From IMG/VR virus record IMGVR_UViG_3300042945_001297, positions 1-28,433 of that record: a stretch of 28,433 nucleotides of DNA; one strand, 5' to 3'. The DNA comes from a virus. Below, in pieces: positions 22,210 through 28,433 of the stretch (within the stretch, counting starts at the first letter, position 1; the number at the start of each line of letters is the position of its first letter). A program made the position numbers and the translations under genes. The notes under the pieces are model-generated. The model made no database searches, was not told the origin of the DNA, and saw only the letters and a program-made list of their open reading frames with translations.

Positions 22210-23217
22210 CTAGCCGAACACCCAGATCTGAATCTGAGCATTGCCACCATTACCGCCAGCGCCACTGGTAAAAGTAGAACCACAAGCTCCTCCACCACCA
22301 CCGCCACCACCAGGATTAGCACCATTGCCACCGTTGCCGCCATTAGTTGAGCTTGCCCCGCCTCCACCACCACCGCTTTTAGCAACAGTCGCATTTGACG
22401 CAGAAGTGTTGATTGCAGCACCGCTTCCGCCGCCTCCTACGCTGTCGTCTGAAAAAGGATCGTTTCTGGAAACCCCACCATCAGAACCAGCACTGAATGT
22501 CGTAGCGTTAGTGCGGCCACCGCCGCCACCGCCGCCACCGCCACCGCCAAAACCTGGGCCGCCAGGAGTGAAAACAGTTACTGTCGGATTTGCACCTCGA
22601 CCACCATACCCATAATTTGAACCAATATTGGCAAGACTTATGCTAATCCCTGGCACACCATAACTTCGATCCCAAGTCCTCTGCCTAAAAGAAGAATTAG
22701 GATTTGTTGAACCAGAACGCCCTCCAGGACTCCCCGGGAAAAACAAGTTCCCAAAATAACTGTTACCTCCAGTGCCGCCATTTTGCCCGTCGTTGTTAAC
22801 AACCCCACTTGCGCCAACGCCACCAGCTCCAATAACAACATTCACAGAAGTGCCCCCACCACCTAACGAACTAGCACTAACAACGGTCCTCCAAAAACAA
22901 CCTCCAGCTGCGCCACTTCCGCCATTCCCATCAAACAACGTAGAAACTCCACTGCCACCACCACCTCCAGCACCAATAGCTTCAACAATTACAATTTGAG
23001 CCTTTGCTGGCATCTGGTAAGTAAACGAACCAACAGTATTAAAGATCCTTGTGTCAGCAAGCATAATAGAAGAAATGCTTGAGCTAAGTGCTGGAACGGT
23101 TGCGCTTATCGCTTGAATGCTCAACTGGTGTTCGACAATGTCATTAACAATTACATTGTGATCGTTTGCATTCGGCTTATCGCCAGCAATAACAGTTCTA
23201 GGAGTTTCATAACTCAT
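22210..23217 (-). CDS. Glycine-rich adhesin/fibre protein, copy 2
   Basis: 335 aa. The N-terminal part (MSYETPRTVIAGDKPNANDH, then NVIVNDIVEHQLSI) is a short coiled-coil-like base. A beta segment (GSFTYQMPAKAQIVIVEAIG) leads into many poly-Gly blocks separated by short loops, ending GGNGGNAQIQIWVFG. Such blocks form polyglycine-II sandwiches in phage adhesins such as S16 gp38, where variable loops bind the host surface. It is a paralogue of the gene just upstream: base, poly-Gly layout and the terminal IWVFG are shared, but loop sequences differ. GATAGT lies 7 nt before the ATG and there is no clear Shine-Dalgarno. The frame is open 8 codons upstream, overlapping the previous gene. Confidence 0.72.
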   Translation of the reverse strand: MSYETPRTVIAGDKPNANDHNVIVNDIVEHQLSIQAISATVPALSSSISSIMLADTRIFNTVGSFTYQMPAKAQIVIVEAIGAGGGGGSGVSTLFDGNGGSGAAGGCFWRTVVSASSLGGGGTSVNVVIGAGGVGASGVVNNDGQNGGTGGNSYFGNLFFPGSPGGRSGSTNPNSSFRQRTWDRSYGVPGISISLANIGSNYGYGGRGANPTVTVFTPGGPGFGGGGGGGGGGGRTNATTFSAGSDGGVSRNDPFSDDSVGGGGSGAAINTSASNATVAKSGGGGGGASSTNGGNGGNGANPGGGGGGGGACGSTFTSGAGGNGGNAQIQIWVFG

Positions 23218-23225
23218 TTGTCGAA

Positions 23226-24236
23226 CTATCCGAAAACCCAAATAGTGATTTGTGCGTTCCCCCCGTTCCCTCCAGCGCCAGAGGCAATGCTCTGGTTAGA
23301 GCCTCCTCCGCCGCCGCCACCACCGCCTGGACTACCACCGTTCCCTCCATTTCCAGGAGCGGTAGAACTTCCGCCGCCTCCTCCACCACCCTGCTTTGCC
23401 GACCCATTGCTACCACTAATGCTTGCAGCACCACCGTTCGCTCCGCCACCACTATTGATTTCAAAAGCACTTGAAATCAAGACGGAAAAATCATTACTCG
23501 ATCCTCCACCCTGCCCACCAGAAACAGCAGTTGAGCCGCTAATTCCTCCGCCACCACCACCTCCGCCACCACCATTAAGGTGATAATAGCCATTTTGGAT
23601 AACAGACCCGCTTACAGCTGCGCCTCTTCCGGATCTACCGTAATCCCAAAAGCTACTACCAATTTCGTAATCCATAGAAAAAGAATTAGCTGCACTTGTA
23701 CTGCTCGAACCACCAGAGTTACCACCCTGTCCACCAGGGAACGAAAGAAAACCAAAACTACTTACTCCGCCATTGTTTCCGCTAATTCCACTTGTATCAG
23801 CGGTAACAGAACTACCACCACTACCGCCAGATCCAATTGTTGCGCTTATGGAAGCGCCAGCACCACCAAGAGCGCTTGCCGAAACTGTCTCCCTGAAAAA
23901 ACCACCACCACCTCCTCCGCCGCCACCACCAGCATTATTCGTGCTTGTTGAAGATCTTCCACTGCCTCCGCCGCCACCAGCGCCAATACATTCCACAACA
24001 ACAATTTGGGCGCTTGCGGGGATGGTGTACGTTGTAGTTCCAGTGACACTAAAGACCTGCGTAGCAAGCAACTGGATACTTGTAAGCGCAGTAATTGTTG
24101 CGCTAACAGCCGAGACACTTGAGCTGACAGCCTGGATGTCAGACTGATGCTGAATGATGTCGTTGACAATGATGTTGTGCTGGGAAGCTGGGTACTTATC
24201 GCCAGCGACAACAGTCTGCGGAGCAACGTACGTCAC
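23226..24236 (-). CDS. Glycine-rich adhesin/fibre protein, copy 1
   Basis: 336 aa. The N-terminus MTYVAPQTVVAGDKYPASQH has the GDxxxAxxxN pattern of phage fibre attachment regions, followed by a helical stretch (SDIQAVSSSVSAVSATITAL), a beta strand set (VTGTTTYTIPASAQIVVVE), and long Gly runs, ending NAQITIWVFG. It is expected to be a surface protein that contacts the host. It starts at GTG 12 nt after the spike-base gene; TAGGAT lies 6 nt upstream, and its AGGA could also serve as a weak ribosome site. Its neighbour, the spike-base-like protein, suggests that this adhesin may sit on a head vertex and not on the tail; that is inference. Confidence 0.72.
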   Translation of the reverse strand: MTYVAPQTVVAGDKYPASQHNIIVNDIIQHQSDIQAVSSSVSAVSATITALTSIQLLATQVFSVTGTTTYTIPASAQIVVVECIGAGGGGGSGRSSTSTNNAGGGGGGGGGGFFRETVSASALGGAGASISATIGSGGSGGSSVTADTSGISGNNGGVSSFGFLSFPGGQGGNSGGSSSTSAANSFSMDYEIGSSFWDYGRSGRGAAVSGSVIQNGYYHLNGGGGGGGGGGISGSTAVSGGQGGGSSNDFSVLISSAFEINSGGGANGGAASISGSNGSAKQGGGGGGGSSTAPGNGGNGGSPGGGGGGGGGSNQSIASGAGGNGGNAQITIWVFG

Positions 24237-25627: not shown

Positions 25628-27208
25628 CTACTTCTTGCCGACAACAAACCGCGTAGCGCGCTTCTGAATGTCAGGCTGCGGCTTAGGCTTAGGCTTCTCC
25701 ACCAGTCGAATAGGCGTCACAGCTTCCTGCTGCCACACCGCCTGCGCGCCAGCCATAGCCATCACCAAGTCGTCGTGACAACCCTCATCCGCCTCGGGAC
25801 GCGGCTCTCGACCACCACGATCCCGGTACACAAACGTTTTCATCTCGCCAATCAAGTCCTCACTCTTGATTCGGTGCGGCTCATCACGCACAGCGGCCTG
25901 CAACGCCGCCAACATCAGCGGCCTGGTCGCGCTCGTCGTGTTCCACCCGAGAATCTGCTCGTACTTCGCATTCACACCAATCGGATTCTTCGGACGCCAC
26001 AAGCGCGGATACCCCATCGCGTTCTTCAGCTGCGTCAGCACCGCCGTTCCAGGCCCATTGCGCTCCACAGCGATAATCGCGTCGTTGAACAAGCGTCCGA
26101 CGCGCGCAAGATCATCAGCGAACTCGTCAACATCAGCCCGATACTTGATTTCCGCCACCTGCTCGCCATTATCAAGGCGTAGCACAATCGCTACGGAGTA
26201 ATCCATACCAGATCCGATACCGCCACGGTCCTCGCGCCGCTCATACTCCTCAAAACTGACCGAACCAGCAACGTCAGCAAAAATAATGTACCGAGAATCC
26301 CGCCTTGGCGCCTCCCACAGCTTCATCGCGCCACGATTATCCTCGTAGAACTCGATTCTTCCGCCAGGGACAGGCAAACCCCGCACAAAACCACGCTTCT
26401 TCGGCGCCATCCCGCGTACATTCTCCAAAAACTGGAAGTATTGGCGCCCAGTAGTCTCACAAAACTCGCCCAAAACGCGAATCTTGTACGCGCTCGAGTC
26501 CTCACCCCACTGTCGCTTCGCATCCTGCACCCACTCCTGCGTGATCAAAGCCCTCTGAGCGTCCTCAGACACCTTCTCACCCGTGAAACACGGCGCGTCA
26601 AACGCGCTCATATGCACCGTGTACCACCCAGAGTCAGGCTGGAACGCCTTATAGAACGTCCCCGTCGGCCTCGTAGGGTTCCCAATCAGCAGCACGCGCG
26701 CCTCATCAGCCGTCAAGAAACCCTCAGACGCCTCGTAAATAGCCTCATCCACACCACTAGCCTCATCCACCACCAGCATCATCCTCGGCGCGTGATGCCC
26801 CTGGAATCGCTCAGGCTTATCCGTAGACAAACCCATAGCAAACCAATCCGACCTGACCTCAAGGCTCGACTTGAACATCTTCCCAAACGCATCCTTACCG
26901 CCAGGGATCTTCGAGTGACGCAACGCGATCTCGCGCCACAACAACTGCTCAACCTGACTCCACGTCGGAGCAGTCGTAATCACACGACACGGCCCCTCCG
27001 TCATGAAATCAAGCACCGCAACAGCAGCCGTTGCCGTCTTACCAACCCCGTGACAAGACCTGACGGCAACCCTCTTGTGCTTCTTCAACGCCTTCAACAC
27101 TTCCTGCTGCTTCGACCAAGCATCAAACCCAAAAAGATTCTTAGCTTTCCACACAGGATCAGCCATCCGCGCCCTAAGCTGAAGCGCCTCTTTCGAGAAA
27201 TCACTCAT
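25628..27208 (-). CDS. terL: Terminase large subunit
   Basis: 526 aa from the ATG at 27208. ATPase: Gln-motif region FDAWSKQQEV, Walker A SCHGVGKT (51-58, Cys-His in place of the usual variable residues), Walker B MMLVVDE (143-149), coupling motif LLIGNPTR. Nuclease (RNase H fold): IIFADVAGS (Asp312), AIIAVERNG (Glu382), EGCHDDLVMA (Asp479/480). It drives DNA into the capsid and cuts concatemers. The C-terminus is basic (KPKPKPQPDIQKRATR) as in portal-docking tails. The ATG lies one nucleotide after the 3' end of the tRNA. There is no standard Shine-Dalgarno; only a GGGG inside the tRNA acceptor stem is near. A TTG start inside the tRNA would add three residues and is unlikely. Confidence 0.95.
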   Translation of the reverse strand: MSDFSKEALQLRARMADPVWKAKNLFGFDAWSKQQEVLKALKKHKRVAVRSCHGVGKTATAAVAVLDFMTEGPCRVITTAPTWSQVEQLLWREIALRHSKIPGGKDAFGKMFKSSLEVRSDWFAMGLSTDKPERFQGHHAPRMMLVVDEASGVDEAIYEASEGFLTADEARVLLIGNPTRPTGTFYKAFQPDSGWYTVHMSAFDAPCFTGEKVSEDAQRALITQEWVQDAKRQWGEDSSAYKIRVLGEFCETTGRQYFQFLENVRGMAPKKRGFVRGLPVPGGRIEFYEDNRGAMKLWEAPRRDSRYIIFADVAGSVSFEEYERREDRGGIGSGMDYSVAIVLRLDNGEQVAEIKYRADVDEFADDLARVGRLFNDAIIAVERNGPGTAVLTQLKNAMGYPRLWRPKNPIGVNAKYEQILGWNTTSATRPLMLAALQAAVRDEPHRIKSEDLIGEMKTFVYRDRGGREPRPEADEGCHDDLVMAMAGAQAVWQQEAVTPIRLVEKPKPKPQPDIQKRATRFVVGKK

Positions 27209-27209
27209 A

Positions 27210-27290
27210 TGCCCCAAGAAGGACTCGAACCTTCACGCCAAAGGCACTCGATTTTGAGTCGAGCGTGTCTACCAATTCCACCATTGGGGC
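27210..27290 (-). tRNA. tRNA-Leu (anticodon CAA)
   Basis: 81 nt, complete cloverleaf: acceptor GCCCCAA/TTGGGGC, discriminator A, D stem GTG/CAC, anticodon stem CTCGA/TCGAG with loop CTCAAAA (anticodon CAA, reads UUG), type II variable arm GCC-TTT-GGC, T arm GAAGG-TTCGAGT-CCTTC. CCA is not encoded. It begins 4 nt after the terminase small stop and ends 1 nt before the terminase large ATG, so it must be cotranscribed and cut out of the message. UUG is the leading Leu codon in the neighbouring small terminase gene. Confidence 0.97.
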
Positions 27291-27294
27291 GAAA

Positions 27295-27801
27295 CTACTC
27301 CTCAACAACAACTTCGCCCTCCACCTGGAGAGCACCACGCGCATCCTCAAGCGGAATCTGCGCCAACGCCACAAGACTCAACGTCTGCGGCGAAACCTCA
27401 TGCTCCACAACCTCCTGCTTATGAAACCCGAAACTCCGCTCCAACTGCCACGCCGCCGGCTTCCAATCCCCCTCAGCAGCAGCCTCATTGATCTTCCGAA
27501 GATTCTGCTTCATATGCTGCTTCCGAGCCTCATAAAACCGGCGAGAAAACTCCGCATACCGCTTCGACTCGCCCTTCTTCCCCTTATGCAGCGTACTCAT
27601 AAACACCTTCTCATCAACACCAAGAACACGCGCAATCGCACGCTCAAACGCACCCAAACTCGCCAACTCCACAGCCTCCTCAAGCTGCTCATCCGACAAA
27701 TCCCCCATCGTCCCCGCAGGCAAATACTCCGACACGCGAAACGCGCCAAGACGCTCCAATGCCTCCTCGCGCGCCTCCCGCAAATCAGCCCTCTTCGTCA
27801 C
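27295..27801 (-). CDS. terS: Terminase small subunit (putative)
   Basis: 168 aa. Helical N-terminus; RAIARVLGVDEKVFMSTLHK resembles an HTH-like segment; then KRYAEFSRRFYEARKQHMKQ and AAAEGDWKPAAWQLERSFGF followed by HKQEVVEHE. The segment 'RYAEF...FYEAR...A...GDWKAAxWxLER' is the usual C-terminal oligomerisation part of phage small terminases. It binds the packaging start on DNA and delivers it to TerL. It lies directly upstream of terL with the tRNA between. GTG start with GGGGG 7 nt upstream. Nine of its 17 Leu codons are TTG. The assignment rests on pattern and context. Confidence 0.78.
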   Translation of the reverse strand: MTKRADLREAREEALERLGAFRVSEYLPAGTMGDLSDEQLEEAVELASLGAFERAIARVLGVDEKVFMSTLHKGKKGESKRYAEFSRRFYEARKQHMKQNLRKINEAAAEGDWKPAAWQLERSFGFHKQEVVEHEVSPQTLSLVALAQIPLEDARGALQVEGEVVVEE

Positions 27802-27949
27802 GCGACAACCCCCACAAATCCACCCTCAACCCACTAACAACACTCATACACACCCACGCATCATACTCACACCCAGCCCACACCAACAACCCACCATCAA
27901 CACCATCCCGCGTCAAAAAACTAAAACGCCAACAAGACCAACCACCCAT
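27785..27949 (-). CDS. Possible 54-aa gene overlapping the terminase small start
   Basis: MGGWSCWRFSFLTRDGVDGG, LLVWAGCEYDAWVCMSVV, SGLRVDLWGLSRDEEG. Unrecognised, Trp/Cys-rich for its size. Support: TAGTTT lies 7 nt before the ATG, its T/G-rich codon style matches the terminase small gene, and all six Leu codons are TTG, matching the nearby tRNA. Against: it overlaps terS by 17 nt in another frame and has no homology I can name. It may instead be the untranslated leader of the packaging message. Confidence 0.38.
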   Translation of the reverse strand: MGGWSCWRFSFLTRDGVDGGLLVWAGCEYDAWVCMSVVSGLRVDLWGLSRDEEG

Positions 27950-27956
27950 AAATGCT

Positions 27957-27962
27957 AAACTA
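27957..27962 (-). promoter_or_regulatory. Candidate promoter -10 box TAGTTT before the packaging operon
   Basis: GG-TAGTTT, 7 nt (AGCATTT), ATG. It follows a terminator-like hairpin, so this is a plausible start of the packaging/structural transcript. An overlapping TAGCAT is an alternative box. Confidence 0.42.
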
Positions 27963-27964
27963 CC

Positions 27965-27987
27965 AAAACCCCGCCTCACCAGCGGGA
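27965..27987 (-). terminator. Terminator-like hairpin with short U tract
   Basis: Minus-strand CCCGC-TGGTGAG-GCGGG (plus a U-G pair) followed by GTTTTGG. Small stem but with a U run, positioned between the upstream GC-rich region and the packaging promoter. Confidence 0.4.
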
Positions 27988-28433
27988 GTCGCCCGTCAGA
28001 GGGGCAACCGCAACACGCGCATCAAGAACCCTCCGAACACACAATCGCGTGTTGCCGCCAACGACCAGCCAAGTTGGCAACCCACAAAAGCCAGCCACGC
28101 TTTTGGCACACCCCCACGGAGGGGGGGGAAAGGGGGGGGAGGACCAACACGAACCATTCCTCATCAGCCCATGAAGAAGACATACCCACAAAAAAACAAG
28201 CCCTCCCGTACCACGCACACGCGCGCGCGCTGGGGGGGTTGGTTGGTTGCGGCGTGGCCGAGGGCGCGGCGATGGCCGTAGCTGCGGCGGCGGGGGTGGG
28301 GGTCACCCCTTCCTTCCCCCGAGCTGCGCGGCGTGGTCGACCCGGCCGCAGTCCTGGACGCCCCGCACCACCGAACCCGGGACAAGTCGAGACGCCCCGC
28401 ATCGCGCGACACCGCTACCCCCACACGCCTGCC
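27988..28433. other. About 450 bp with no confident gene; structured region upstream of terminase
   Basis: Contents: an inverted repeat GTTGCC/GGCAAC (28051-28081); a 7-bp perfect hairpin CAAAAGC/GCTTTTG (28085-28105); a polypurine G8-AAA-G8 tract (28117-28142); a GC-rich, G-run-containing end (28220-28433) with GCGCGCGCGC and GGTTGGTTGG. A 53-aa minus ORF (28022-28183; starts MSSSWADEEWFVLVL) crosses the G/C tract but has no clear initiation site. Such a region next to terS is where a packaging site (cos/pac) or the genome terminus is often found. I see no proof of either. Confidence 0.5.
28121..28139. repeat. G8-AAA-G8 tract inside a polypurine run
   Basis: Eight G, AAA, eight G on the plus strand, flanked by further purines (28117-28142 is all A/G). 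The mirror of the G8-TTT-G8 tract at 1865-1883. It could form a quadruplex or H-DNA-like structure, or act as a slippage site if the overlapping ORF is translated. Confidence 0.9.

Follow-up and report, generated by a model that had tools for sequence, protein, structure and literature searches.

A tRNA-Leu(CAA) gene at the terS/terL junction of an uncultured podovirus may leave a nearly leaderless terL mRNA

In mitochondrial tRNA punctuation, tRNAs abut coding genes, their release by RNase P and RNase Z makes the ends of the mRNAs, and leaders are short or absent. The locus described in this study, a tRNA-Leu(CAA) between the genes for the small and the large terminase subunit (terS and terL) of a virus, resembles this organization in that the tRNA abuts coding genes and its release would likewise make mRNA ends with a very short leader. 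It clearly differs, however, in that the phage has one tRNA at one operon junction in a minority of relatives, in that the cleavage is a prediction here, and in that the phage terS has a stop codon of its own, followed by a 4-nt spacer. With a single tRNA at a single junction, tRNA punctuation is not the general organization of this phage genome. Bacterial mRNA-tRNA co-transcripts, such as E. coli secG-leuU and the tRNA-tufB operon, provide another comparison. In these too a tRNA lies within a protein-coding transcript and is excised by host enzymes, as predicted for the phage, but the phage terL starts 1 nt from the tRNA, which leaves no room for a normal ribosome-binding site. Like phage-encoded tRNAs, the tRNA at this locus is a complete tRNA for a frequently used codon (UUG); unlike them, it is a lone gene within the terminase operon, apart from any tRNA cluster.

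Leaderless mRNAs are the remaining point of reference. A 5'-terminal ATG or GTG is enough for translation in mycobacteria and works weakly in E. coli, and a start codon at +1 is what counts for leaderless translation (PMC4633059). The predicted terL mRNA would resemble the actinobacterial leaderless messages described there in having an RTG at or next to its 5' end without a Shine-Dalgarno sequence, and other genes of the phage have TANNNT 6-7 nt before RTG. However, the terL end would arise by processing, with 1-4 extra bases and a 5' monophosphate. For CCA-less tRNA precursors that are co-transcribed, the RNase Z cut falls directly 3' of the discriminator (PMC8549757). No description of a tRNA between terS and terL was found in the open-licence papers searched, which is a weak absence.

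The terS-tRNA-terL junction in the window

The window, by which we mean the whole stretch of 28,433 bases of the virus record that was analysed, has its genes on the minus strand and encodes an SU10-type major capsid protein and an SU10-type portal; the virus is a podovirus with this type of capsid and portal. Two adjacent glycine-rich proteins encoded at 22210-24236 (minus strand) are paralogue-like and possibly tail-fibre-like. At the right-hand end of the window terS, the tRNA-Leu(CAA) and terL all lie in the same direction (Table 1), and the earlier note on this DNA, which had placed the terS stop 4 nt before the tRNA and the terL ATG 1 nt after the discriminator, proves right to the base. 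The terS stop and the terL start are 86 nt apart in the window, neither overlapping nor adjacent, and the identity of terS to its relatives is about 60-73%.

Table 1. Features of the terminase operon in the window
Feature	Position	Strand	Evidence or remark
TAGTTT, -10-like hexamer	27957-27962	minus	7 nt before the ATG of the 54-aa ORF
Conserved 54-aa ORF heading the operon	27785-27949	minus	end overlaps the terS start by 17 nt
terS, terminase small subunit	27801-27295	minus	GTG start, TAG stop 27297-27295; PHROG_4102, E 1.9e-12
Spacer TTTC, 4 nt, terS stop to tRNA 5' end (RNase P side)	27291-27294	minus	direct reading
tRNA-Leu(CAA), 81 nt, type II	27210-27290	minus	ARAGORN, Rfam RF00005, compensatory changes
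Predicted 3' endonuclease cut	between 27210 and 27209	minus	
Spacer T, 1 nt, discriminator to terL ATG	27209	minus	direct reading
terL, terminase large subunit	25628-27208	minus	ATG 27208-27206; PHROG_2, E 1.2e-38

Both ARAGORN and Rfam RF00005 place the tRNA at the same position with the anticodon CAA, and the Rfam match is full length (60.8 bits, E 4.8e-11). The tRNA has a complete cloverleaf with a long variable arm, G1 at its 5' end and an A discriminator (A73), and no CCA is encoded at its 3' end. Across the six distinct junction tRNA sequences, 99.3% of the pair cells are intact, and two-sided (compensatory) changes occur among the relatives at 10 of the 23 pairs, a level reached in none of 500 shuffles. 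Because it recurs at the exact junction in diverged relatives with its pairing kept, the tRNA is more than a chance match, and the conserved pairing indicates that it is genuine and that its fold is under selection. It is the sole tRNA detected in the window by Rfam. ARAGORN also called a tRNA-Cys at 25866-25958 on the plus strand, which lies antisense inside terL and which Rfam does not find; this call is most likely false. A role of the tRNA-Leu(CAA) as an integration site was set aside, the gene being complete and inside the packaging operon. UUG makes up 199 of the 545 leucine codons (36.5%) in the main genes of the window, and this high use fits a decoding role for the tRNA. The UUG share of leucine codons is 0.34 in tRNA-bearing and 0.26 in tRNA-less records (Mann-Whitney p 0.001, kinship ignored), with the exception that L004, which has no tRNA, shows the highest share of all. 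The tRNA is accordingly one that we predict, from sequence features, to be functional and to supply this codon.

When terL of 15 relatives was aligned, the N-termini fell at or within 5 residues of the window ATG, and the conserved core of the protein started about ten residues past it. Since the N-termini of the relatives coincide, the ATG at 27208 is supported as the terL start; an upstream TTG inside the tRNA (27217) was rejected as a start because these N-termini do not support it. The sequence at the terL start, ATGAGTGA, is kept both with and without the tRNA, and in overlap relatives such as L017 the terS stop is encoded within the same letters, which suggests that the terS/terL overlap may have come first and that the tRNA was set in at its edge.

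The junction among related phages

A terL search of IMG/VR gave 79 loci, and 37 of these, all with terL identity above 80%, have a readable junction. A tRNA-Leu(CAA) stands at this place in 11 of the 37 (L001-L003, which carry the window's sequence, L005, L006, L008, L007, L013, L025, L037 and L026), in six distinct sequences with that of the window included; the tRNA locus of L005 is cut at the contig end. The gap between the discriminator and terL is 1 nt in the window, 3 nt in L007 and 4 nt in L013, in L025 and L037 and in L026, and thus 1-4 nt in five of the six distinct tRNA junctions, while in L006 and L008 it is 48 nt. The spacer between the terS stop and the tRNA is 4-13 nt across the relatives, and each of the six distinct junctions has a U no more than two bases from the discriminator. 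The tRNA-terL spacer of L006 (L006:1408-1455) contains a repeated ACGATTTGTGGGACAC unit. The 26 relatives without a junction tRNA mostly have terS and terL joined or nearly so: the two genes overlap or lie at most 5 nt apart in 15 of the 37, a hairpin of 43-46 nt occupies the junction in nine, and an extra gene does so in two (L022 and L023). The expectation that related phages would carry a tRNA at the same junction was therefore borne out in the 11 loci, with the close spacing in five of the six sequences, but not in the 26 others, nor as to spacing in the 48-nt lineage.

These four junction states are interleaved on the terL tree, implying several gains, losses or exchanges, and the terL tree does not tell which. 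As judged from the relatives compared here, the terS/terL junction is a reusable insertion slot. The tRNA-bearing records L013 and L037, of 39.3 kb, have no second tRNA. No tRNA at all is present in seven records (28-40 kb) whose junction is tRNA-less. Family-wide alignment searches with terS and terL added one contig, L405, which is 57% identical and in which terL overlaps the upstream gene. The insert in L022 and L023 is 519 nt long (L022:2583-3101, L023:5482-6000) and holds an ORF with its own leaderless-type start and promoter, and a GGAG Shine-Dalgarno sequence precedes terL in both, so that such phages can carry a Shine-Dalgarno sequence when coupling is lost. The hairpin, TGATCCAATGATCCA...TGGATTGGTGGATCA, is found in L015, L016, L018, L020 and L029-L033 (for example L016:5957-6000), once per contig, solely at the terS/terL junction and in these nine viral contigs only. 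It is nearly identical in two terL clades and could serve translation coupling, RNase III cleavage or recognition by the terminase.

Leaderless-type starts and transcription of the operon

We scanned 583 candidate ATG or GTG starts for an upstream TANNNT and found 36 at a gap of 6 nt and 19 at a gap of 7 nt (55 in total), where other positions have roughly 6 each. A further bump, at 25 nt, is probably due to related loci and to successive start candidates of one gene. This peak 6-7 nt before start codons confirms the proposal of the earlier note that the genome uses leaderless starts, and starts of this type, as identified by the motif, are widespread in this uncultured podovirus group. The operon is headed by an ORF of about 53 codons that stops at or near the terS start and has a CEYDAWV-type core in 12 of 14 loci, with a leaderless-type start in 10 of the 14. 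In the window, the TAGTTT hexamer before this ORF is likely to mark the start of a transcript that would run through terS, the tRNA and terL. No sigma-70-like promoter was found in 26900-28433, and TANNNT is absent 6-7 nt before terL at all 19 junctions scored; both results speak against a separate terL promoter. Since no promoter of its own was found for terL, the gene is probably carried on the terS transcript.

Release of the tRNA and translation of terL

We propose that a single transcript, which the lack of other promoters points to, would run from the leaderless 54-aa ORF through terS, the tRNA and terL, and that the host would release the tRNA from it with RNase P and with a 3' endonuclease, namely RNase Z if its tRNAs are CCA-less. 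If the tRNA is functional, it must be cut from the terS-terL message; this would split the message after terS, and the terL mRNA would then begin U-AUG, nearly leaderless but within reach of translation in a host able to read leaderless messages. Such punctuation would most likely be a by-product of the position of the tRNA, tolerated since leaderless initiation is available, and most likely not a device evolved to regulate TerS:TerL; the position of the insert, and not selection for a leaderless end, may account for the tight spacing. To this reading as a whole, a functional tRNA held in the slot and cut from one transcript with a near-leaderless terL mRNA as by-product, we give about an even chance of being right. 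The punctuation that the earlier note had put forward is plausible and partly supported: it agrees with a real tRNA, its abutment on both sides, the leaderless-type promoters, the lack of a terL promoter and the recurrence of the arrangement in relatives, and is weakened by the majority of relatives that have no tRNA, by the one 48-nt gap, by close tRNA-start spacing in other phages and by the G-rich acceptor strand, a potential Shine-Dalgarno sequence if the message stays uncut. Also counting against it, the predicted terL leader is 1-4 nt and not 0 (48 nt in the one lineage), and terS translation would end with a ribosome placed over the acceptor stem, where it could obstruct maturation of the tRNA. 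RNase Z and the ability to translate leaderless messages are presumed of the host, for which bacterial genomes gave no close match: a 40-nt core of the tRNA had no match in bacterial genome contigs, and terL had only distant matches in bacterial genomes, mostly in Acidobacteria. The leaderless architecture and the NlpC/P60 and CHAP lysis-type domains encoded in the window prompt the guess of an actinobacterial host.

The strongest rival is coupling through an uncut message, in which the ribosome that ends terS melts the acceptor stem and exposes its G-rich 3' strand as a Shine-Dalgarno sequence for terL. The hairpin relatives share this layout, with the terS stop in the 5' arm and a Shine-Dalgarno-like GGTGG and the terL start at the 3' arm, and their hairpin looks made for such coupling; the acceptor 3' strand places GGGC or GGGGGC 5-6 nt before the start in L007, L013, L026 and L037; and Shine-Dalgarno energies reach -8.4 in L026 and L037, where coupling could work well. 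Coupling also looks ancestral, because terS and terL overlap, or come close to it, in most of the relatives that have no tRNA. In the window, however, the G run is just 3 nt from the ATG and its energy of -4.3 is unremarkable beside a background mean of -3.1. Moreover, GCCC/GGGC is a common acceptor pairing among tRNA-Leu genes, and cutting out a functional tRNA would remove the Shine-Dalgarno-like signal. We regard coupling as a tentative possibility that falls well short of an even chance. A bridged Shine-Dalgarno sequence, GAGGAG at the terS end acting over the folded tRNA, was rejected, as it is absent from the terS ends of the tRNA-bearing relatives.

The tRNA may instead be cargo in a recombination-prone slot, its spacing without consequence and terL expressed from an undetected promoter or by weak reinitiation. 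A slot with four alternative contents interleaved on the terL tree and the tolerated 48-nt gap fit this explanation, and so does the frequency of such abutments elsewhere. In a phage tRNA sample drawn from IMG/VR by T-arm patterns, with tRNA ends called to within about 1-2 nt, 19 of 547 tRNAs without a tRNA close behind (about 3.5%) were followed, 0-4 nt past the discriminator, by the ATG of an ORF of 50 codons or more, and the stricter pattern tRNA-A-N-ATGA had at least 120 matches in IMG/VR, with 29 confirmed among those fetched. Abutment of a tRNA and an ATG in phages is uncommon but recurrent, and not unique; the special part is the place between the terminase genes and the recurrence there. 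Cargo without consequence seems unlikely to us, however, given that no promoter-like site was found and that the terL start is kept within 4 nt in five of the six distinct junctions. We hold it equally doubtful that the embedded tRNA is a processing signal through which RNase P and RNase Z would create the near-leaderless terL mRNA, making packaging-motor synthesis dependent on host tRNA maturation, with the sister hairpin as an alternative device at the same junction. That the tRNA is kept as a cutting signal to set the TerS:TerL ratio, or to tie packaging to host tRNA processing, appears highly improbable. The tRNA does occur solely at this junction, and on the midpoint-rooted terL tree it is present in both halves, but 26 of the 37 relatives manage without it and codon usage is an ordinary reason for keeping a tRNA; regulation of TerS:TerL by the tRNA is unsupported.

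If cutting and near-leaderless translation are true, the tRNA release proposed here would clearly exemplify, in a virus of bacteria, tRNA punctuation of the mitochondrial kind, and it would account for a gene standing behind a tRNA without a ribosome-binding site. The relatives form a natural series, with a tRNA, a hairpin, an extra gene or an overlap at one base position, which makes this a question that can be tested with reporters.
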